Of a stretch of 64,000 bases of DNA, positions 7,308-56,496 are shown piece after piece. The DNA is taken from NCBI RefSeq assembly GCF_019704555.1, contig NZ_AP024745.1, forward strand, positions 1 to 64,000, written 5' to 3'. Position numbers and translations under genes: made by a program. Each line of letters starts with the position of its first letter. The first letter of the stretch is position 1. This DNA is from Actinoplanes sp. L3-i22 (lineage in GTDB: Bacteria; Actinomycetota; Actinomycetes; Mycobacteriales; Micromonosporaceae). Below the pieces are notes generated by a model. That model had not been told where the DNA came from. It did not search any database and was given only the letters and a program-made list of their open reading frames with translations.

Positions 7308-7316
7308 TTATCCACA
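7308..7316 (+). promoter_or_regulatory. Isolated DnaA box before dciA
   Basis: TTATCCACA, a perfect DnaA box on the plus strand, ends 12 bp before the dciA start codon and overlaps its likely translation-initiation region. It could let DnaA repress or sense this gene; that is inference. Confidence 0.6.
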
Positions 7317-7328
7317 GGGGGTGGCGGC

Positions 7329-8192
7329 ATGCCGCGAGCGGTGAGTGGGGCCGGCGGCGGACGGCGCAATCAGCGGCCTGCGGCGGAGACCGGATCGGCC
7401 ACGGGCGGCAACGCGGCTCCGGCCGGCGGGGATCCCGCCGCGGCGAGGAGCGGCGCGAGCGGCGGCGACGAGGCATCCGCGGCCAGGGGTGGCACGGCGG
7501 GCCGCGGCGGCGCTTCCGCGGCGAAAGCCGGCGCGACAGGCAAAGGAACCACGGGCGCGACAGGCAACGGAACCGCAGGCGGGACAGGTAAGGGAACCGC
7601 AGGCGGGACCGGTGACGGGACCGTTGGTGCGACGGGTGGCGGGACCGCTGGGGCGGCCGGTGGCGCGGATGTCGCCGCGGCTGCGGCGGAGGCAGGGAAG
7701 GCCGGGCCGGAGCTGGCCCGCGCGGTGCTGGACGCGGCGCTGACGAAGCGGCGGGCGGCGGCTCAGCAGCCCCGCCGGCGCAATGCCGGCCAGGGCGGGA
7801 AGCGGCTGCGCGGATACTCCGGGCCGGGGCCCGATCCGCGGGACCCGCAGCTGTTCGGCGCGGTGCTGGAGCGCCTGATGAAGGCGCGCGGCTGGGAGCG
7901 GCCGAAGGCCGAGGCGACCGTCTTCGGCGCCTGGGAGAAAGTGGTCGGGGCGGACATCGCCGCGCACAGCCGGCCGATCAAGCTCGATGCCGGGGTGCTG
8001 ACCGTCGAGGCGGAGTCGACGGCGTGGGCGACCCAGCTGCGGATGCTGACCGGCCAGCTGCTCAAGCAGATCGCCGGCGAGGTCGGCCACAACGTCGTCA
8101 ACCGGTTGAACATCCACGGGCCGGCCGCGCCGTCCTGGGCCAAGGGGCCGCGCCGGGTGCAGGGCCGCGGGCCGCGGGACACCTACGGCTGA
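7329..8192 (+). CDS. dciA: DUF721 / DciA-type replication protein
   Basis: 287 aa; ATG with a GGGGGTGG run just upstream. The C-terminal ~120 residues (from about 165) carry the DUF721 fold, including the segments FGAWEKVVGADIAAHSRP and ESTAWATQLRML. DciA proteins help load the replicative helicase in bacteria lacking DnaC. The N-terminal ~140 residues are an Ala/Gly/Thr low-complexity tail with degenerate TGxGTAGG repeats (about 7540-7660). This is longer than in most homologues and presumably disordered. The location downstream of recF is the standard actinobacterial context. Confidence 0.85.
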   Translation: MPRAVSGAGGGRRNQRPAAETGSATGGNAAPAGGDPAAARSGASGGDEASAARGGTAGRGGASAAKAGATGKGTTGATGNGTAGGTGKGTAGGTGDGTVGATGGGTAGAAGGADVAAAAAEAGKAGPELARAVLDAALTKRRAAAQQPRRRNAGQGGKRLRGYSGPGPDPRDPQLFGAVLERLMKARGWERPKAEATVFGAWEKVVGADIAAHSRPIKLDAGVLTVEAESTAWATQLRMLTGQLLKQIAGEVGHNVVNRLNIHGPAAPSWAKGPRRVQGRGPRDTYG

Positions 8193-8269
8193 GGTTTGCC
8201 GTCGGGTGAACTTCCCGGATTTTCTGCTGTTCGTGCAACCAGAACGGCTTTTCCAGCGTCTTAGCCCAC

Positions 8270-8497
8270 ATGGTCCTTCGGCGATTACTGGCCCTGCTCC
8301 TGCCCGTGGCGGGTGTTCTCGCGGCCGCGACGACCCCGGCCTGGGCGGCGGCGTCCGGCGGCTCGGTGCGGGACGGCATGCGCTGGTCGTTGTTCCTGGG
8401 CACCGGGATCGGGGTGCTGCTGCTCGTGATCGTGGGCGAGATGTGGTGGCTGGGCCGTCAGGACGCGCGTGCGTCGGTGGACTCCGACCGCACGTGA
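8270..8497 (+). CDS. Small membrane protein with signal peptide
   Basis: 75 aa. Residues 1-26 look like a Sec signal (RRLLALLLPVAGVLAAA, with a cleavage-type AWA-A). A second hydrophobic stretch at about 43-58 (LFLGTGIGVLLLVIVG) is a transmembrane segment. The short tail is charged. No family is recognised and no clear Shine-Dalgarno is visible. It is followed by a repeated 123-bp element. Confidence 0.55.
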   Translation: MVLRRLLALLLPVAGVLAAATTPAWAAASGGSVRDGMRWSLFLGTGIGVLLLVIVGEMWWLGRQDARASVDSDRT

Positions 8498-8505
8498 CGG
8501 ACGGT

Positions 8506-8628
8506 TGAAGCGCAACCACCCACGCAGAATGAAGGGTGCGGCGATCGTTTTGGACGCGCCAGCGGCCAGATCGCCGTGCCCGGCCCCCGCGGGAGCGGCG
8601 GTCTGTACCCGTCGCCCACATGGGACAT
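8506..8628. repeat. 123-bp dispersed inverted repeat, copy A
   Basis: The reverse complement of 41629-41751 matches this segment over 123 positions with only three mismatches (my manual alignment). It lies in the convergent gap between the small membrane-protein gene and the minus-strand gene ending at 8675. It contains a perfect 8-bp stem, CGGCGATC/GATCGCCG (about 8539-8576), enclosing a GC-rich loop. It has no coding character. Confidence 0.85.
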
Positions 8629-8674
8629 CAATAATTTGATCTTTAATCGGCGGACGGTGACCGAAAACGATCCG

Positions 8675-9241
8675 TCAGTAATCGGCGAAGACCGCGAACC
8701 CGCGCTCCGCGCAGCGGCGGTAGAAACCGGCCAGGACCGCGAGCTCGGTGCGGGCGAAGCTCCAGTGCGGGGCGTTGCCGGCGTCGTCGCGCAGCGCGGC
8801 GAGCCGATGATCGAGCCAGCGCAGCTGCTGCTCGGCGAGCCGGCCCCCGGCGATCGCGGTCCGCATCACCTCGGCGACGGTGTCGAAGGTGACCAGGTCA
8901 CCGAACTTCTCGTGGCCCTCGACGAAGCGCTCCAGGCCGCCGGCGATCCAGGCGCAGCCGTCCGGGTCGATCACCGGGTCCTCGTCCTCGGCGGCCGCGT
9001 CGGTCGCGTAGAGCACGCCGTCCAGGCCCAGGAGCAGGTCGACGAGCTCGGTGTACGCGGTCGCGCGCACCGTGCCGGTCTTCGCGATGTGCAGCGCGAG
9101 GGCGCCGGTGGGCGCGGCGATCTCCGGCGCGTCGGCGATCCCGCCGAAGTCGACGAACTCGGCGGGGGCCACCGGGTCGTAGTACTGGTTCGTCCGCGGC
9201 CAGTGCACCGCGACGTTGTCCAGGCCCTTGTCGTGCGCCAT
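8675..9241 (-). CDS. Conserved protein of unknown function
   Basis: 188 aa on the minus strand; ATG preceded by GAGGAAGG at good spacing. Not recognised. It is acidic (many Asp/Glu), with no signal peptide or membrane segment, so probably cytosolic. The C-terminal third is helical, with aromatic/Arg-rich stretches (HWSFARTELAVLAGFYRRC). It lies between the origin core and gyrB and reads away from gyrB. Confidence 0.75.
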   Translation of the reverse strand: MAHDKGLDNVAVHWPRTNQYYDPVAPAEFVDFGGIADAPEIAAPTGALALHIAKTGTVRATAYTELVDLLLGLDGVLYATDAAAEDEDPVIDPDGCAWIAGGLERFVEGHEKFGDLVTFDTVAEVMRTAIAGGRLAEQQLRWLDHRLAALRDDAGNAPHWSFARTELAVLAGFYRRCAERGFAVFADY

Positions 9242-11719
<2,478 letters not shown>

Positions 11720-17018: not shown

Positions 17019-17041
17019 TCTCGCCAGGGCTGTGAGGCGCC

Positions 17042-17121
17042 GAGGCCGGCTCAGATCGAGGCCGGCTCAGACCGAGGCCGGCTCAGACCGAGGCCGGCTC
17101 AGATCGAGGCCGGCTCAGACC
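17042..17121. repeat. 16-bp tandem repeat (5 copies)
   Basis: GAGGCCGGCTCAGAYC is repeated five times in perfect register; only one position alternates T/C. The TCA inside the last copy is the stop codon of the minus-strand gene ending at 17115. Confidence 0.9.
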
Positions 17122-17561
17122 GAGGTTGACTCGGAGATCGGGGCTGGGGTGGGCAGCGGGGCCGCGATCGTGCGGTGGCGCTCGGCGATGAAGTAGACGA
17201 CCGCCGCGGCGTAGCTGAACGTCAGCAGCAGGCTCAGGACGCGGATCGACGGCGGCGGGAAGGGCAGCGCCGCGATCGAGAGCGAGACGGCCGCCCAGCC
17301 GGCGAGCAGGCCGGTGTTGATCAGGTCGTGGCGTCCCCAGCGGCCGGTGCGGCGGTGGGCCTGGCGCTGGATCTCCACGGTGAAGGCGTGAGACATACCC
17401 AGGGCCAGCAGGGCCAGCAGAATCGTGGCGAAGACGGAGTGCTGGCCGCCGGCGACCGCGGCCATGGCGGTGGCGCCGGTCATCAGGGCCAGGCCACTGA
17501 CGGTTCCGACTCGGGCCTCGCGGCGCTCGGGTGCGTACTCCTCTCCCACAATCTCAGACAT
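17115..17561 (-). CDS. Putative membrane protein
   Basis: 148 aa on the minus strand. About four hydrophobic segments are visible (near 24-40, 43-60, 84-100, 108-126). The N-terminus is acidic/Arg-rich and cytosolic. The product is not recognised. The stop codon lies in the last copy of a 16-bp tandem repeat, so its C-terminus (PTPAPISESTSV) may be set by repeat turnover. Confidence 0.7.
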   Translation of the reverse strand: MSEIVGEEYAPERREARVGTVSGLALMTGATAMAAVAGGQHSVFATILLALLALGMSHAFTVEIQRQAHRRTGRWGRHDLINTGLLAGWAAVSLSIAALPFPPPSIRVLSLLLTFSYAAAVVYFIAERHRTIAAPLPTPAPISESTSV

Positions 17562-19061: not shown

Positions 19062-19490
19062 TCAGCTCAGCTGGTCGGTGATCTGGCGCTTGAGGCGGGC
19101 CAGGATCGCCGTGCCGCCGCGGACCCGGAGCGGGCTGATCGTCTGGCCCAGACCCATCCGGCCGTAGAGATCGTCCGGCACGGCGAGGATCTCGGCCGCG
19201 GTCGAGCCGGCCAGGCCCTCGGCGAGGATGCCGGCGAAGGCGCGGGTGGTCGGCGCTTCCGGCGGGCAGTCGAAGTACGTCACGACGGTGGAGTCCGGCT
19301 GGACCTCGGCCTTGAGGAAGAACGCGGTCTGGCACTCCGGCACCTGCTCCATGCCCTCGTGCCCGGTCAGCTCGGCGGGCAGCGGGGGCACCGCGTCGGA
19401 GAACTCCAGCAGCATCTCCAGGACCACCTCGCGGGGTGCGGAGACGAAGTCCTCAACGATCTCGGCCAGCTTCGGCGGCATATCGGTCAC
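19062..19490 (-). CDS. sufE: SufE-family sulfur acceptor protein
   Basis: 142 aa from the GTG at 19490; an ATG at 19481 is also possible. The conserved N-terminus (PPKLAEIVEDF) begins here. The catalytic Cys53 is in VPECQTAFFLK, the SufE persulfide acceptor site. SufE takes sulfur from a cysteine desulfurase and enhances Fe-S assembly. Actinobacterial copies are often near a rhodanese-type sulfurtransferase; here one is at 22.7 kb on the other strand. Confidence 0.87.
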   Translation of the reverse strand: MTDMPPKLAEIVEDFVSAPREVVLEMLLEFSDAVPPLPAELTGHEGMEQVPECQTAFFLKAEVQPDSTVVTYFDCPPEAPTTRAFAGILAEGLAGSTAAEILAVPDDLYGRMGLGQTISPLRVRGGTAILARLKRQITDQLS

Positions 19491-19578
19491 GAGATCCAAC
19501 CTACGCGTCGATGCCCAGCGCCCGCCCAACAGCCGGGCGTGAGATCAGGCAGCGGCTGTGGTGGGCCGGTGGGATGGG

Positions 19579-19968
19579 TCAGGCGGCGGCTGAGGTGGGG
19601 AGCAGGGCCACGTCGCTCAGGCTCAGTAGGCCGACGACCTGACGGTCGGCGTCGCAGACCAGGAGGCGGCGGACGGCCCGGGACCGCATGGCCTGGACCG
19701 CCTCCTCCACGGTCGCGTTCTGCTCGATCATGATGAGCTCACGGGAGGCGATCGAGCCGAGCGTCGTCGACCCCACCGGCAGACCCTCGGCGATCGCCCG
19801 GACCACGATGTCGCGATCGGTGACGATGCCGGCCATGGTCGGCCCGTGGGTCACCACCACGTCGCCGATCCCCTGGTCGCGCATCGCCTGAGCGGCCTCG
19901 TCGAGCGACGTGTCCGCCGGCAGGTAGACCACCCGCCGGGTCATCGCGTCCGCCACCAGCCTCGCCAT
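19579..19968 (-). CDS. CBS-pair domain protein
   Basis: 129 aa from the ATG at 19968, with AGGAG 8 nt upstream; a GTG at 19977 overlaps that site and is less likely. It consists almost entirely of two CBS motifs (about 5-58 and 70-123), with the typical GIVTDRDI and LSLSDV ends. Such stand-alone pairs sense adenosine nucleotides; the partner is unknown. It lies downstream of proS on the same strand. Confidence 0.88.
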   Translation of the reverse strand: MARLVADAMTRRVVYLPADTSLDEAAQAMRDQGIGDVVVTHGPTMAGIVTDRDIVVRAIAEGLPVGSTTLGSIASRELIMIEQNATVEEAVQAMRSRAVRRLLVCDADRQVVGLLSLSDVALLPTSAAA

Positions 19969-30453: not shown

Positions 30454-31806
30454 ATGAAGAAGACGTGGGTTCGTAAGACGCTGAGCGTCGGAATCATGGC
30501 CGCCGGGGCCCTGCTGCTCGGCCCGGTCGCCGCTGCCCAGGCCGGCGGGCACCACACCGCCCCGCAGGGTGGCCAGAACGGGATCACGCAGGTCTCCTCG
30601 ACCAACCTCGGCGCCCTGAACGGCACCCAGTTCGCGATGCCGGTCACCGCGCCGATGAACATGAACGGCAACGCCCTCGCCCTGGGTGGCATCTCCTCCG
30701 CCACCGGTGGCGGCGTCAACCACATCGCCGAGGGGTCCCAGGCCCGCCGCGGCGGCAACGGGATCGCGCAGCAGTCCGGCGGCAACGTCGGCTTCGGGAA
30801 CGGCACCCAGATCTCCGTGCCGGTCACCGTTCCGACGAACATGAACGGCAACGCCGACAGCCTCTTCGGGGTCAGCTCGGCCCGCGGCACCGGGGTCAAC
30901 CACGTCACCGAGGGCGCGCAGGCCGCCAACGGTGGCTGGGGCAACGGGATCGGGCAGCAGTCCGGCGGCAACGTCGGCATCCTGAACGGCACCCAGATCG
31001 CCGTGCCGATCACCATCCCGATCAACCAGTGCGGCAACGCGGACAGCCTGTTCGGGGTCTCCTCGGCGCGGGCCACCTGCGGCAACTTCATCGGTGGCAG
31101 CGGCTTCGGCCGTAGCGTGCAGCAGGGCGGCAACGGCGGCGCGGTCGGCAACGACGGCTGGGGTCACGGCGGCAACGCGGTCGGCGCCCTGGGCCACGGT
31201 GGCAACCGGGTCGGTGGCTGGGACAACGGGATCAACCAGTCCAGCTTCGGCAACATCGGCTTCCTGAACGGCACCCAGTTCGCGGCGCCGATCGTCGCCC
31301 CGATCAACGCCTGCGGCAACTCGCTCGGCTCGCTGCTGGGCTCTGCCCAGTCCTCGGCGATCTGCGTGAACCGGATCGGCAACGACGGCGACGACGTCAT
31401 GTGGGTCAAGAAGCCGGCCAAGGGACACCAGCACGGCGGCGACGTCCAGGGTGACCAGGGCGACGACTGCTCCTGCAACGACGACGACAACAGCGGCGAC
31501 GTCCGTGGCGACCACGGTGGCTACGACAACGGTGGCTCGGCCCCGGCCGTCAACGACGACCACGGCTACACCAACGACGACGACAACGGCGACGTCAAGG
31601 GTGACAAGGGTGGCAAGGGCTACGGCGACGTCAAGGACGACAACAAGGGCGACGTCAAGGGCGACAAGGGTGGCAAGGGCTACGGCGACGTGAGCCCGGA
31701 CAAGTACGGCGACAAGACCGGTGGCCGCAACTCCATCGAGAGCACCCCGGTCAGTGGCCTGACCGGCAGCCTCGGCGGCCTGGACCTGCTGAACAGCCTG
31801 CGCTGA
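30454..31806 (+). CDS. Chaplin-like multi-repeat secreted protein
   Basis: 450 aa. A signal peptide (about 1-29, ending AAAQA-GG) is followed by four repeats of ~50 residues (starting about 42, 102, 167, 256). Each carries NGI...S..N.G.LNGTQ followed by a V/I/P-rich beta strand, then NGN or CGN and a second strand. This resembles the chaplin core (GN..Q.PV..PVNVCGN...GLLNPAFG). Repeats 3 and 4 have Cys pairs (193/209, 287/304); repeats 1 and 2 have none. A C-terminal Asp/Gly/Lys-rich segment (about 329-423) repeats KGDKGGKGYGDV. No LPXTG-type signal is present. Likely an amyloid-type surface protein of spores or sporangia. Confidence 0.8.
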   Translation: MKKTWVRKTLSVGIMAAGALLLGPVAAAQAGGHHTAPQGGQNGITQVSSTNLGALNGTQFAMPVTAPMNMNGNALALGGISSATGGGVNHIAEGSQARRGGNGIAQQSGGNVGFGNGTQISVPVTVPTNMNGNADSLFGVSSARGTGVNHVTEGAQAANGGWGNGIGQQSGGNVGILNGTQIAVPITIPINQCGNADSLFGVSSARATCGNFIGGSGFGRSVQQGGNGGAVGNDGWGHGGNAVGALGHGGNRVGGWDNGINQSSFGNIGFLNGTQFAAPIVAPINACGNSLGSLLGSAQSSAICVNRIGNDGDDVMWVKKPAKGHQHGGDVQGDQGDDCSCNDDDNSGDVRGDHGGYDNGGSAPAVNDDHGYTNDDDNGDVKGDKGGKGYGDVKDDNKGDVKGDKGGKGYGDVSPDKYGDKTGGRNSIESTPVSGLTGSLGGLDLLNSLR

Positions 31807-41145: not shown

Positions 41146-41604
41146 GTGAGAATGACGATTGGTTCGGAGAACCTCAGCAACGGCTCGTCGACGGCGCAGG
41201 ACCGCTTCAGCGGGGGCGTGAGCGCCTACCGGCACGGCCGCCGCGACGTGCTGAGCGGTGACCTCGACGGCGACCTGCTGTCCCGCGGCACGTCGGGTCT
41301 TCCGACCCGGACGCCCGGGCGCACGCACGGTTCGCACAGCCTCGAGCCGACCAGCGCCCTGGACCGGGCGGCCAAGCTGCCGTCCCTCGATCTCCAGGGC
41401 CTGACCGAGCCGGTCTTCCCGGCGAGCTGGACCGACGGCACGAACATGTCGATGGCCGATCACCCGCTGCTGCGCGGCCTGCTCCTGGAGCTTCCGGCGC
41501 GCGGCACGCTCCCGCAGTCCGACTGGCTCGACCGCTGGTTCGAGGCGGCGCGCTCGATCCTGGAGCTCCTCTACGTCCAGGAAGCGAAGAAGGCCGCGCA
41601 CTAA
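41146..41604 (+). CDS. Hypothetical cytosolic protein
   Basis: 152 aa from GTG 41146, or 150 aa from ATG 41152; the GAGGCAAGG region can serve either. The first ~95 residues look disordered (Ser/Gly/Arg-rich). The C-terminal ~50 residues form a helical domain (HPLLRGLLLELP...WFEAARSILELLYVQEAKK). No family is recognised. A 123-bp repeat follows. Confidence 0.7.
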   Translation: MRMTIGSENLSNGSSTAQDRFSGGVSAYRHGRRDVLSGDLDGDLLSRGTSGLPTRTPGRTHGSHSLEPTSALDRAAKLPSLDLQGLTEPVFPASWTDGTNMSMADHPLLRGLLLELPARGTLPQSDWLDRWFEAARSILELLYVQEAKKAAH

Positions 41605-41628
41605 ACCAAGGTCAACTTCCAGACCTTC

Positions 41629-41751
41629 ATGTCCCATCTGGGCGACGGGTACAGACCGCCGCTCCCGCGGGGGCCGGGCACGGCGATCTGGCCGCTGGCG
41701 CGTCCAAAACAATCGCCGCGCCCTTCATTCTGCGTGGGTGGTTGCGCTTCA
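41629..41751. repeat. 123-bp dispersed inverted repeat, copy B
   Basis: Inverted copy of 8506-8628 with three differences over 123 positions. It begins 24 bp after the hypothetical gene and lies in a convergent gap before a minus-strand membrane-protein gene. The 8-bp stem of copy A becomes CGGCGATC/aATCGCCG here, with one pair weakened. Confidence 0.85.
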
Positions 41752-41829
41752 CCCAAGATCAAAACCGAAGAGCTCCGCGCATCGCGCCCTCCGACGACAA
41801 GTCAGAGGGCGCGCGGCTTTGTCAGCGGC

Positions 41830-41952
41830 CCTGGTCAGGAGCGCGGCTTTCGGTGGCGACCCTGGTCAGGGGCGCGGCTTTCGGTGGCGGCCCCGGTCGG
41901 GGGCGCGGCCTTTGGGTGGCGGCCTTGGTCAGGGGCGCGGCGCTGGTCAGCG
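41830..41952. repeat. ~31-bp imperfect tandem repeat (about 4 copies)
   Basis: Units beginning CCTGGTCAGG.GCGCGGCTTTC at 41830, 41861, 41892 and 41924 (the last shortened). The TCA within the last copy is the stop codon of the minus-strand gene at 41947. Confidence 0.8.
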
Positions 41953-42585
41953 GACGCCGACGCGGGCGCGCTCGCGGGCCCGGCCCAGCGGGGCCAGGAC
42001 CAGCGGCGCCAGCCGGCTGTGCCGCAGCGCCGCCCGGATGCCGATCGTCACCACGGCGACCGCCACCACGGTGATCGAGACCCCGGCGATGCCGGTGAAG
42101 CCGGTGGTCGCCGGGACGCCACTGCCCGGCAGATGCACCAGGCCGGCGGCGAGCGGCAGACCGACCACCGCGGCCAGGCCGGTGATCTGGAGCGGAGCGG
42201 CGATCAGCGGGTGCGCCGCGGCCGCCCGCAGAGCGGGCGGAACCGGCGCCTGCGGGGCGGTCGCGAACGCACCGGTGCCCCGGCGCACCCAGCTCAGCCT
42301 GCGCAGGCCCAGGGTCAGCACGATCAGTGCCGGCACGGCTGGGAGCAGGGCAGCGGTGGGCGCCGCGGAGACGCCCGGAATCAGGGCGGTGACCAACGGC
42401 ACCGCGACGAACAGCGCCGCCCCCGTAGCGACCAGGACGGCGAGCAGCCCGGCCCGGCGGCGCATCAGCCGCGCGGTGCCGGCCGCCGGCAGCCCGTCGG
42501 CCAGCAGCCCGGCGGTGAGCCAGACGACGGCGAGGGCGCCGATCAGAATCACGTCCACAGCGGTGTTCACATCGACAGCGTTCAC
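41947..42585 (-). CDS. Putative membrane protein
   Basis: About 212 aa from GTG 42585; GTG 42570 is an alternative with a better purine-rich spacing. Five to six hydrophobic spans are visible (for example VILIGALAVVWLTAGLLAD, LLAVLVATGAALFVAVPL, VSITVVAVAVVTIGI). The C-terminal tail is Arg-rich. No family is recognised. Its stop lies in a 31-bp tandem repeat. Confidence 0.68.
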   Translation of the reverse strand: MNAVDVNTAVDVILIGALAVVWLTAGLLADGLPAAGTARLMRRRAGLLAVLVATGAALFVAVPLVTALIPGVSAAPTAALLPAVPALIVLTLGLRRLSWVRRGTGAFATAPQAPVPPALRAAAAHPLIAAPLQITGLAAVVGLPLAAGLVHLPGSGVPATTGFTGIAGVSITVVAVAVVTIGIRAALRHSRLAPLVLAPLGRARERARVGVR

Positions 42586-42830
42586 CCGCGTCCGAAGAAT
42601 CGAAACCGGGATATGCCCCCATCGCTGACCCGTAGGGGTTCGTCTCAGCCCGCTCTCAGGTACCTGAGCTGCGCGTTCGCCGGAACCGCGGAACAGGGGT
42701 GTCAACATCGCGACGGACCGCACACTGTGGACCGGGGATCGCGCGGTATGTGACCTCTGCCCCACTGTCGGCCCTGGGACGAAAAAAGATCATCCGCGCC
42801 CGAAGACACGGATGATCCCAAACGAAGATC

Positions 42831-45572: not shown

Positions 45573-46942
45573 CCCTGACTCTGCGCTATGCCGCTCAGTG
45601 CGACCGCGGGCTGATCCGAGACCTGAACCAGGACTCCGTCTACGCCGGGCCGCGGCTGCTTGCTGTCGCGGACGGCATGGGCGGTATGGCCGCCGGTGAC
45701 GTCGCGTCCAACATCGTCATCGCCGCGATGGCGCCACTAGACGACGACGTCCCCGGGGACGCGCTGGTCGACGCGCTACGACATGCCGTCGGCATCGCGA
45801 ACCAGCAGCTGCGGGACACCGTCGACGCCAACCCCCAGCTGGAGGGGATGGGCACCACGCTGACCGCGGTGCTCTTCACCGGCAGCAAGTTCGGCATGGT
45901 GCACATCGGCGACTCCCGGGCGTACCTGCTGCGCAAGGGCGAGTTCTCGCAGATCACCAAGGACGACACGTACGTTCAGATGCTGGTCGACGAGGGCCGG
46001 GTCAGTCCCGAGGAGGCGAGCAGTCACCCACAGCGGTCACTGCTCACCCGGGCGCTGGACGGCCGGGACATCGACCCGGAGTACTCGGTGCGCCAGGTGC
46101 TCAAGGGCGATCGGTACCTGATCTGCAGCGACGGCCTGTCCGGCGTGGTCAGCGGCGAGACGATCGGCCAGACCATGCGGGAGATCGCCGACCCGAAGGC
46201 GTGCACCGAGCGCCTGGTGCAGCTCGCGCTGCGCGGCGGCGGGCCGGACAACATCACCGTGGTGATCGCCGACGCGACCGACGCGGACATCGTCGAGCAG
46301 GCTCCCATCGTCGGTGGCGCGGCCGCGCTCGACCGTGGCAACACCACCGTGGCGGACGCGTCGACCCCGGCGTCCCGCGCGGCGGCGCTCAAGCAGCCCC
46401 CGCCGCGTCCGGCCCAGCCGGAGAACGAGGGTTACGACCGCGAGCCGGAACCGGCCGGTCACCCGGTGCGGACCAGCCTGCTGGTCCTGCTGGTGCTCGG
46501 CGTGCTCGGCGGCGGCCTCTGGGCCGGCTGGAAGTACACCCAGGACCAGTATTACGTCGGCGCGACCGACGCGGGCCAGCTCGCCGTCTTCCGCGGGGTG
46601 CCCGGGCAGATCGCCGGGCTGAACCTGTCCGCGGTGAACGAGACCAGCACGGTCCGCCTGGAGGACCTGACCACGGTCGCCCAGGAACGGGTCAAGCAGG
46701 GCATCCACGCCGACAGCGTGGCCGACGCCCGGAGCATGCTGACCGACCTGACCAGCGACGAGCCGTCGAACCCGAACCTGAAGCCGGTCTGCTCCGTAGT
46801 CAGTGTCGCGCCCGCCGTCTCGGCGTCGGCGCGACCGGCCACCAGCCCCGCGACTTCGGCTCCGGCCACCGTGCCGAGCGTTCAACCGTCCGAGAGTGCG
46901 TCCACCGCCACCGACACGACCGGTTGCCGGACCGCCGACTGA
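45569..46942 (+). CDS. pstP: PP2C-type Ser/Thr phosphatase PstP
   Basis: 457 aa; ATGA overlap with fhaB. A cytosolic PP2C domain (about 1-240) shows the metal-binding DLNQDSVYAG, VADGMGGMAAG, GDSRAYLL and GGPDNITVV motifs. A linker, one transmembrane helix (about 300-323) and an extracellular ~130-residue domain follow. It counteracts PknA and PknB. rodA starts 28 bp downstream. Confidence 0.95.
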   Translation: MTLTLRYAAQCDRGLIRDLNQDSVYAGPRLLAVADGMGGMAAGDVASNIVIAAMAPLDDDVPGDALVDALRHAVGIANQQLRDTVDANPQLEGMGTTLTAVLFTGSKFGMVHIGDSRAYLLRKGEFSQITKDDTYVQMLVDEGRVSPEEASSHPQRSLLTRALDGRDIDPEYSVRQVLKGDRYLICSDGLSGVVSGETIGQTMREIADPKACTERLVQLALRGGGPDNITVVIADATDADIVEQAPIVGGAAALDRGNTTVADASTPASRAAALKQPPPRPAQPENEGYDREPEPAGHPVRTSLLVLLVLGVLGGGLWAGWKYTQDQYYVGATDAGQLAVFRGVPGQIAGLNLSAVNETSTVRLEDLTTVAQERVKQGIHADSVADARSMLTDLTSDEPSNPNLKPVCSVVSVAPAVSASARPATSPATSAPATVPSVQPSESASTATDTTGCRTAD

Positions 46943-54135: not shown

Positions 54136-56496
54136 TTATGCCTTCAACTTCATCTCGGCCGGGATCCCGGCGTCCGCCTTGGTCTGGTCCCGGGGCACCG
54201 TCTTCACCAGCTCCGCGTGCACGATCAGCCGCTGGTAGTTGTTGAACTTCGGGTTGCAGGTGGTCAAGGTGAGCAGGGCCTTGGTCGGGGTGGCGTCCGG
54301 CTCGTTCGGGACCGCGGCGACGACCTCGACCTGGTTCGGCTTGACGACCTGCTGGCCGTAGACCTGGTAGACGTACCACGCGTCGCGGGTCTCGACGCCG
54401 ATCACGTCACCGGCCTTCAGCTCGTCGATCCGCCAGAAGATCTTCTTGATCCGGTGGCCGGCGACCGAGAAGTTGCCGATCTGGCCGGGCTTGGCGGTCT
54501 CCGGGTAGTGGCCGGGCGCGTACTTGATGTCCTGCGGGCGGACGCCGTCGACGACCACCCACTCCTTGTCCAGCTTCGGGATGTAGATCCGGCCGACCAG
54601 GTTCTCGCCCGGAGCGGCCGGGCCCTTCGCCGCGTTGGTCGGCGTGACGGTCGGGTCGGCCCACGACTGGTCCAGCTCCTGGGCCAGGTGGTCCTGCTCG
54701 TTCTGCACCGCGGCGGAGTTGCCGAACACCTCGTAGCCGGCGAACAGCAGCACGATCAGACCGAAAGTGATCATCAGCTCGCCGGCTCCGCGGATGCCGC
54801 TGCGGACCTTCGACGGGCGGGTCAGCTCGGAGTAGACGCTCTTGTAGCCCTCGCCGGTCTGCTCCGCGCGGAGCTTGACCACCTTCTCGCCGCGCTTCGG
54901 CTCGCCGGGCTGCTCCGGCTCGAACTCCGGCTCGGCCGGTGCGGCCGGGAGGCCGTCGACCGAGGCGGCGCCGAGGACGACCGCGGGGCCCGCGGCATCC
55001 CGGGCGGCGGCCGCCGCCGCGCCCGGGGGCAGGGCGGTGAGCTTGCCCGGGAGCGAAGCCCCGGCGGACAGGGTGGGCAGGACGCCGGTGGGGGCGTCGA
55101 TGGTCCGGATGATCTGGGTCTCGGACGGGTTCGGGTTCACCGCGGCCGGGGGCTCGGCCGGTTCCGGCGGCTCGTTGCTCATCCAGCGGGTGTTCGCGGT
55201 CCCCATCTGAGGAGCGGGCCGGCTCGGGGTCGCCGCGGGGGCAACCTGGCCGGGGTAGCCGCCGGACGCGGTGTGACCGCCGGAGTGGGCCGCTGCCGCC
55301 GCCGGGCTGCCGGGGGGCGACCAGGGGGCGGGCGCGGCGGTTTGCGGCGTCTGCGGGGCGTTCCAGGGGGTTTGCGGGGTGGTTGCCACCGGGTCCGGCC
55401 GGCTCGCGGGCATCTCGGCGCGGGCCGGTGCGGCGGTCTCGATGCGGCCGGTCGCGTCCGGATCCCAGGACGGGGCGGTCGCGGCCGGGGGGACCGGGTC
55501 CGCGTGGCGGCTGGCGACCGGGGCGGTCTGGCGGGTGGGCTCGGCGTCCCAGCTGGGCGGGCTGCTGGGCTTGACGGTGTCCGCGTTCCAACCCGGCGAG
55601 GCCGGGCTGCTCGGCGCGGCGGACCCGTAGACGGGACTGCCAGGAGCGGCGGAACCGTAGGCCGGGCTGCTCGGAGTCGCGGACCCGTGGACGGGGCTGC
55701 CGGGAGCGGCGGAACCGTAGGCCGGGCTGCTGGGGGCGCTGGTGCCGTAGGCCGGGCTCTGCGGGCGGGTCGGCTCGGCGTTCCAGCTCGGGTCGGTGGA
55801 AGCGGCGGTCGGCACCGAGATGCTGGGCAGGGTCATGCCCGGCATCGGAGCGCCGTGCAGCGTCACGCCGGTCAGCGCGCCACCGGGCACGGCGGGGCCG
55901 GGCGCCGCTGCGGCGATCGGCGGGGACGGCTCGGCCGACCGGGCGAGCGGGACCGCGGAGCCGGGAATCTGCTGCGTATCGGCGATCTGCGGGGCGGCTT
56001 CCGCCCGTACCGTAATCGGGTTTTCGATCTTTTCCGGGTTGCCGGGAGCGGGGAACGGCTGCGGCGCGGCAGGCGGCTGAGCGGCCGACGACATCGCGCG
56101 GCGGCGGGCCGCGGCTGCGGCGGCGCTCACCTCGTCCAGGCTGACGTCGGTGCGCGCGGCCTGGATCCGCTGCTGAGTGGCCTCGTCGGCCTGGAGGATC
56201 GCGGTGTCCGCCGCGGCCTCCGGCGGAGTCCGGGCCGGCTGGGCCGCGGTCGCGCCGGTCGCCGACGGGTCGGCGGCGGCGGGCTCGGCGGCGCGCGCGG
56301 CGTGGGGGGAACCGGCCGGACTCGGGCTCACGTTCGTGCCCAGGCCGACCGGGGGTGTCAAGGGCCCGCCGGGCACACCGTCCGGCGAGGCGTCGCTGAG
56401 ACGCGGAATATACGCGGTCTGGGCCTCGGCATCAGGCGCTCGGTGTCGCCCTCTGCCCGCCGTGCTCCCGGGGAACTCCGCCGGCGTGCTCGTCAC
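54136..56496 (-). CDS. srtE: Class E sortase with long N-terminal extension
   Basis: 786 aa from GTG 56496, whose GTGA overlaps the DUF881 stop. Residues 1-565 are a Pro/Ala/Ser-rich, presumably disordered cytosolic region with tandem [14 protein letters not shown] repeats (55612-55755). A transmembrane helix (about 568-588) leads to the sortase fold: VAGHR with catalytic His, TLTTC with Cys747 and the Arg in YQR near 756. Class E sortases anchor LAXTG proteins, including long chaplins in Streptomyces. No substrate with a sorting signal is seen in this window. Confidence 0.88.

Follow-up and report, generated by a model that had tools for sequence, protein, structure and literature searches.

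Two closely similar intergenic stretches, lying in opposite orientation near the start of the Actinoplanes sp. L3-i22 chromosome, raise the question of whether they are a recently duplicated pair or members of something larger, and of what might preserve them. The window (the whole stretch analyzed, 64,000 nt) covers the first 64 kb of a genome assembled as one contig of 12.0 Mb and begins with dnaA-dnaN-gnd-recF-dciA-gyrB-gyrA; among the 80 loci listed, its RecF is closest to that of Actinoplanes philippinensis (89% identity). An earlier note on this DNA had described a 123-bp inverted match with three differences, and direct comparison proved this to be exact, the reverse complement of 41629-41751 being identical to 8506-8628 (+) at 120 of 123 positions. 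The same pair was the strongest non-self blastn match within the window (126 bp, 96.8%, E 8e-55). The note was also right in placing both copies outside genes and between convergent neighbors: with a codon-usage gene caller written for the L3-i22 genome, neither copy overlapped a called gene, and both gaps were flanked by a + gene ending on the left and a - gene ending on the right (8497/8675 for copy 1 and 41604/41947 for copy 2). Longer open reading frames that cross the copies (e.g., 7308-8621 on the - strand and 41629-42753 on the + strand) were passed over by the codon model, and a coding role for the window copies is not supported. The features of the two loci are as follows.

8498..8646, + strand: copy 1 of the element (cmsearch with model R1, 112.8 bits, E 1.2e-27; core 8506-8628)
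8534..8546, + strand: 5' arm of the long stem of copy 1, pairing with 8569-8581 (minimum-energy fold)
8551..8568, + strand: apical stem-loop of copy 1, TGGACGCGCCAGCGGCCA (minimum-energy fold; helix 5 of the model)
8569..8581, + strand: 3' arm of the long stem of copy 1 (minimum-energy fold)
8625..8646, + strand: A+T-rich 3' tail of copy 1, ending in TTTGATCTTTAA (column information from 56 copies)
8270..8497, + strand: gene upstream of copy 1, small protein of 75 aa (codon-model call)
8675..9241, - strand: convergent gene beyond copy 1, 188 aa (codon-model call)
41611..41759, - strand: copy 2 of the element (cmsearch with model R1, 111.4 bits, E 3e-27; core 41629-41751)
41152..41604, + strand: gene left of copy 2 (codon-model call; carried by relatives in a DNA search)
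41947..42570, - strand: convergent gene beyond copy 2 (codon-model call; carried by relatives in a DNA search)

No Pfam or NCBIfam match was found for the 188-aa gene, the DNA of which is conserved in other Micromonosporaceae, or for the longer frame 8206-8505 that covers the 75-aa gene upstream of copy 1. Other internal repeats of the window lie at 30577-31320, 31562-31691, 55599-55758, 17040-17125 and 41806-41941, among them 38 identical bases at 17040 and 17088 and a degenerate repeat that adjoins copy 2. A weak covariance-model match at 46538-46653 (-) is probably due to chance (18.8 bits, E 0.036).

Searches of the complete genome revealed that copies 1 and 2 belong to an Actinoplanes family of imperfect-palindrome repeats of about 150 nt. 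Matches to the element were found by blastn at 36 places among the best 40 of 283 candidates, a lower bound, and covariance model R1 detected at least 150 copies among the best 150 of 22,047 candidates. A systematic sample of 60 evenly spaced 20-kb stretches, 1.2 Mb of the L3-i22 genome, contained 18 copies scoring at least 121 bits, with the next match at 18 bits, which corresponds to about 180 copies per genome (Poisson range roughly 107-285, calculated by hand). The aligned copies yield a modular consensus of about 150 nt that is itself an imperfect palindrome. Because the core motif GGGAGCRRCGRTC, present 18 times inside elements and 4 times in coding sequence of this sample, had no intergenic matches elsewhere, no truncated or decayed copy was recognized in the 1.2 Mb.

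The window copies fall in a minor subfamily distinguished by its long stem, of which two further L3-i22 members were found (L003 and L004) and which resembles element copies from other genomes of the genus. Copies 1 and 2 are 0.98 alike in the core, while copy 1 and its same-place counterpart in the relative G071 are 0.82 alike; it was concluded that copies 1 and 2 were copied or homogenized recently. Of the two possibilities raised by the earlier note, recent duplication or functional constraint, each therefore stands in part, the first as recent copying or homogenization and the second as compensatory change in a hairpin (described below), while the notion of a two-copy pair gives way to a family of about 180.

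The family is confined to the genus in the genomes searched. With model R2, built from 53 copies of 50 loci picked among loci already retrieved, the element was found in 58 of 67 genomes of Actinoplanes (stricter filters, best 46 candidates per genome), congeners having between 0 and at least 150 detected copies. An order-wide search (stricter filters, best 27 candidates per genome) found it in none of 110 other genomes (111 with L3-i22), 12 of them from the same family, and it was likewise found in 0 of 8 genomes of other families. A phage or plasmid origin was rejected, and the attachment element that the earlier note had listed as an option gained no backing, as there was no match in phage or plasmid records (blastn, 'distant' sensitivity).

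Counting copies and recording the orientation of flanking genes, checks of the kind that the earlier note had proposed, revealed many copies in L3-i22 and the genus, mostly in convergent or tandem gaps. The 57 L3-i22 sites remaining after duplicate removal, 54 of which come from outside the window and its subfamily, comprise 30 convergent, 19 tandem and 1 divergent context, plus 7 at locus ends without assigned context; none is spanned by a called gene. Relative to the 65 convergent, 139 tandem and 102 divergent gaps of at least 150 bp in the systematic sample, convergent gaps are in excess (Fisher p 1.2e-7) and divergent gaps are deficient (p 3.4e-7). For copies from relatives, the counts are 15 convergent, 10 tandem and 2 divergent among 27 copies, several of which are orthologues at the dnaJ site and so not independent; 13, 5 and 2 among 20 copies of G032; and 8, 10 and 0, with 2 lacking an assigned context, among 20 copies of G053. 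Within tandem contexts, the element lies on the same strand as the upstream gene in 11 cases and on the opposite strand in 8. On the scale of the chromosome, 19 of the best 150 copies fall within 4-8 Mb, where 50 would be expected (p 1e-8), and 69 of the best 150 are oriented with replication, revealing no bias. Among 159 copies, neighbors less than 5 kb apart are inverted in 15 of 16 cases and those more than 20 kb apart in 49 of 109, and this scarcity of close direct copies would be expected if recombination removes them.

Other repeats accompany the element in places. Locus L161 (L3-i22 700,000-719,999) contains, at 19477-19945, two inverted copies with tandem mini-hairpins of about 66 bp between them, the units of which begin with the element's own ACCGCAACCACCC motif. 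A second, free-standing hairpin repeat, CGGCTGG..CTCA.GG.., was observed in L214 (L3-i22 11,300,000-11,319,999) at 10856-10910 and in L173 at 1154-1208; it has 8 half-site matches in the 1.2-Mb sample, every one of them between genes, and is also part of some of the several kinds of left extension that occur on elements. The left flanks of L026 and L215 have in common an extension of roughly 150-200 bp containing TGTGGATAACTC, which we take to resemble a DnaA box. Finally, outside elements, TGTGGATAAC has 12 intergenic matches in 1.2 Mb, and called coding sequence contains none.

Many element positions are common to species, with orientation kept. The clearest case follows dnaJ: when this region was retrieved from the 67 genomes and elements were called at E <=0.001, at least 32 were occupied (L318 is cut by a contig end and L332 is partly N), the element was antisense to dnaJ in 32 of 32, and it started between -13 and +81 nt of the dnaJ stop in 28 of 32. 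In G031, G034 and G065 the sole detected copy follows dnaJ, and none of the 9 genomes that were negative in the genus search with model R2 carries an element there. Two dnaJ loci carry duplicated parts of the element, by reading, the long hairpin arm being duplicated inside the element in G051 (L280, 2657-2863) and the right part of the element occurring about three times in tandem in G052 (L327, about 200-560). Some dnaJ sites appear to have kept no more than the right end, as judged by eye; a retroelement-like 5' truncation was considered on this account and set aside, none having been recognized in the 1.2 Mb of L3-i22. A sense-strand 3'-UTR role for dnaJ is weakened by the antisense orientation, and such a role is awkward for the family generally because tandem copies lie on both strands.

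Sites elsewhere were also compared. G071 carries a counterpart of copy 1 at the corresponding place; in the A. philippinensis locus this place is taken by different sequence. The copy 2 site carries an element in 4 of 15 relatives (G010, G046, G051 and G069), always oriented as in L3-i22, and is without one in 11; about 10 bp separate the matched blocks of the two flanking genes in G038 and in G047. Between L3-i22 and G069, both stem arms at this site have changed in step, as judged by eye. Of 40 copies from G053 and G032, 11 loci matched compared L3-i22 DNA over at least 220 bp, two of which (L352 and L363) fall short of the site and were dropped; of the 9 placeable copies, 7 (6 sites) have an element in the same orientation and 2 do not, although much of the compared L3-i22 DNA had been chosen for containing elements, and 2 of 4 sites are shared in the systematic sample alone. 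Neither a target-site duplication nor a precise insertion boundary was found at the sites compared, where intergenic DNA aligns poorly.

Shared positions do not entail shared sequences. Identities, calculated after trimming 10 bases from the start and 32 from the end of the element, average 0.825 within L3-i22 (58 copies), 0.919 within G053 (21) and 0.861 within G032 (21), the 20 best-scoring copies taken from each of the latter two leaning to the model and perhaps looking more alike than the genome average. The 18 systematic L3-i22 copies alone gave 0.871 within the genome vs 0.775 and 0.781 between genomes (G032 and G053, respectively). Same-site pairs of L3-i22 with G032 or G053 are 0.69-0.81 identical (n=9) and hence no more alike than random L3-i22-G032 and L3-i22-G053 pairs (0.778 and 0.786); same-site G032-G053 pairs are 0.77-0.80 identical (n=3) vs 0.800 at random, and two same-site L3-i22-G010 pairs gave 0.771 and 0.798 vs an average of 0.785. 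Homogenization is not complete: copy 1 and its G071 counterpart (0.822) exceed the L3-i22-G071 average of 0.693 (sd 0.070) by nearly 2 sd. Single same-site pairs lie above average, within 1 sd, for G043 (0.817 vs 0.731) and G051 (0.752 vs 0.656), each based on few copies, and at one site an identity of 0.927 was seen between G010 and G051. A tree was also built from 103 element copies of four genomes, with few columns and 63 of 100 inner branches unresolved; on it the genome label changes 8 times vs 40.6 when shuffled.

The copies are mosaic as well. Across six module positions, for which states were defined after sequence inspection and copies without a recognized state were left out of each table, all four combinations occur in 14 of 15 module pairs of the L3-i22 copies. 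Significant associations were those between the two ends (p 0.0011), the sequences of which partly pair together, and one left-side pair (p 0.037). Incomplete within-genome homogenization and module shuffling together point to concerted evolution of the family. Frequent short-tract gene conversion would be expected to produce this combination at inherited positions, and we infer that gene conversion is the mechanism of homogenization.

Single copies fold as one long interrupted hairpin. When run unguided on the first 20 copies, RNAalifold yielded no more than a weak, partial structure (-14.8 for the + strand and -10.4 for the other), and the fold was therefore taken from one copy (L018) and then tested. 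Covariation of aligned copies, a check suggested by the earlier note, exceeded shuffles even in an alignment that was not fitted to the fold (0.202 vs 0.103), although pairs changed on both sides were not in excess there (14 vs 13.6 in shuffles); the evidence is stronger in alignments that include relatives, which were fitted to the model (A2-A7). Relatives alone gave a covariation of 0.337 (shuffled 0.137, slid at most 0.085) with changes on both sides in 31 of 45 pairs, and L3-i22 together with relatives gave 0.302 (shuffled 0.130, slid at most 0.092) with 32 of 45. The long stem (helix 4), with both-side changes in 14 of 17 pairs, and the apical stem (helix 5), with 96.6% of cells paired in L3-i22 copies, are well supported, while basal helix 1 is weak (56-57% of cells paired). 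These observations support conservation of the long hairpin via compensatory change. The A+T-rich 3' tail, ending in TTTGATCTTTAA, is conserved throughout the family (56 copies) although it lies outside the paired positions.

One strand, as RNA or single-stranded DNA, may be the folded one, because G·U pairs outnumber A·C and the model strand is lower in energy and z. In well-paired, mostly Watson-Crick columns, G·U vs A·C counts are 23:3, 36:6 and 64:17 in three overlapping alignments, although, since the fold derives from the + strand of a single copy and later alignments were fitted to it, counts of pairs and of G·U lean in that direction. Folding energy favors the model strand in 37 of 58 L3-i22 copies (p 0.063) and 42 of 66 others (p 0.0066), by a small difference, and the mean z of this strand is -1.92 vs -1.34 for the other strand in L3-i22 and -2.69 vs -1.66 elsewhere. 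A known structured RNA was rejected, and the small RNA or structural element suggested earlier found no counterpart among known families, as Rfam 15 had no family at the gathering cut-off on the window elements or the elements of 14 loci; the best sub-threshold match at copy 1 reached 16.1 bits, the cut-off being 270. The sole gathering-level match among those 14 loci lies beside the element, in L243, where the only detected copy of G068 adjoins a SAM riboswitch (Rfam RF00162, 69.5 bits; 1257-1395 and 1501-1648).

How does this family relate to known repeats? In the accessible text of the sources, REP, BIME and REPIN sequences are intergenic imperfect palindromes present in hundreds of copies 3' of genes, with close copies inverted, mosaic structure and single-strand folding (PMC3116915, PMC3733652, PMC8049555). 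The Actinoplanes element resembles those of Pseudomonas and E. coli in being high-copy, extragenic and palindromic, with close copies inverted, and resembles BIMEs in being mosaic (14 of 15 module pairs with all combinations). It differs in its unit of about 150 nt, theirs being about 20-60, in that L3-i22 has no Y1/RAYT match and Y1 is unrelated to copy number in the genus, and in that positions are inherited while sequences are homogenized. REPs tagged with CGTC are described, in the same limited text, as lacking a dedicated transposase, and REPs as lying mostly in convergent and unidirectional gaps; five phyla are listed for the CGTC type, Actinobacteria not among them, and that word is missing from the main text (PMC3733652). 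As for such a tag, CGTCGCCC is present in 44 of 58 L3-i22 copies, by reading in an internal loop, and the window subfamily lacks the CGTC letters there. Higgins and colleagues, in the title of a review of 1988 cited in PMC3116915, asked whether REPs evolve by gene conversion.

MITEs are likewise short, non-coding, repeated and absent from some orthologous sites, but no clear terminal inverted repeat was found for the Actinoplanes element, with its weak basal helix 1, and no target-site duplication was seen at the poorly aligning sites compared. ERIC of enterobacteria, an imperfect palindrome of about 127 bp that is not known to have a transposase, is like the Actinoplanes element in length, imperfect palindromy and intergenic placement. 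Of repeats, the accessible part of the genome paper on Actinoplanes SE50/110 names just short repetitive contigs, and no description of the family was found in open-licence full-text literature, a corpus that leaves most subscription papers outside.

With the family, fold, placement, shared positions, homogenization and shuffling shown by computation, alternative models for its origin and maintenance can be weighed. One of these is mobility: a transposase or reverse transcriptase would insert a non-autonomous MITE- or REPIN-like element at gene 3' ends, and species-specific sequences would reflect recent bursts from few masters. The search for a mobilizer covered Y1 (RAYT/IS200-type, PF01797), which had 0 matches in the 12.0-Mb L3-i22 genome (controls positive in 5 of 14) and was found in 21 of 67 genus genomes. 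Among the seven genomes with at least 46 copies, four have no match (L3-i22, G043, G051 and G069) and three have 2-5, and matches are uncorrelated with copy number over 67 genomes (Spearman 0.03, p 0.83); RAYT as the driver is thus not supported. The model is favored by the copy-number range among congeners, by the empty copy 2 sites, including the closely spaced gene blocks of G038 and G047, by a strand-specific fold that would suit a single-stranded intermediate, and by extra inverted L3-i22 copies at 757822 and 11341275, where the G043 and G010 loci hold one, although another relative's locus (L231) has both copies of the first pair. Because birth-and-death transposition would scramble the positions and orientations that species often have in common, and with neither decayed copies in 1.2 Mb nor target-site duplications recognized, mobility as the main explanation appears rather unlikely.

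The strong preference for convergent gaps, the near absence from divergent ones and a stable hairpin on both strands also fit a second model, in which independent selection at many convergent gene pairs favored a bidirectional terminator or roadblock. However, the same placement would result if elements simply avoided promoters, and shuffling and homogenization within genomes are unexpected of independently selected terminators. A plain terminator, one of the options of the earlier note, is moreover unsupported, since a hairpin-plus-U-tract match is present at neither window copy and 49% of 47 gene ends at least 70 nt from an element (38 of 85 ends, lying closer, were left out) have strong hairpins of their own, vs 36% of 108 controls; the figure for divergent gaps is 17% of 102. 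We consider this model improbable. Still less credence is given to a dispersed structured RNA gene, or a putative site for a chromosome-organizing protein such as gyrase, ancestral beside dnaJ. It would account for the occupied dnaJ site (at least 32 of 67, and the only detected copy in three genomes), the scarcity of copies in 4-8 Mb and the strand specificity of pairing, but a sigma-70 pattern scan found no promoter-like site at the window copies, and 9 of 67 genomes have no copy at stricter filters, which indicates that the element is dispensable.

The account toward which we lean is that of a REP/BIME-like family, homogenized by recombination and kept as 3'-end hairpins with a modest, predicted role. 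New copies would rarely settle, in safe space at gene 3' ends and above all in convergent gaps, and many positions, once settled, would be inherited. Short tracts of existing copies would then be overwritten repeatedly from copies in the same genome by gene conversion through homologous recombination, leaving each species with its own mixture of modules at inherited sites, while selection would maintain the long interrupted hairpin of one strand. The hairpin would most likely act as folded 3'-end RNA, blocking readthrough or 3' decay; this function is weakly supported, and a modest 3'-end role is the likeliest benefit of the element. To our knowledge, bacteria seldom show gene conversion in tracts of tens of bases among dispersed repeats of 150 bp, and the copies compared revealed no donor-recipient event; re-insertion at favored sites by some mobilizer would mimic part of the pattern.

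A more specific and more tentative proposal is that, of nearly 200 dispersed, strand-specifically folded elements maintained without Y1/RAYT, many keep inherited positions while short-tract conversion spreads compensatory changes, each arising once, through the whole set, which was possibly seeded at dnaJ. For four of the seven copy-rich genomes, the lack of a Y1/RAYT match removes the usual explanation. The 67 genomes of the genus allow a joint comparison of position sharing, species-specific sequence and the shuffling of modules. In addition, the family supplies many natural compensatory changes within a single fold, as well as a marker at the level of the genus.
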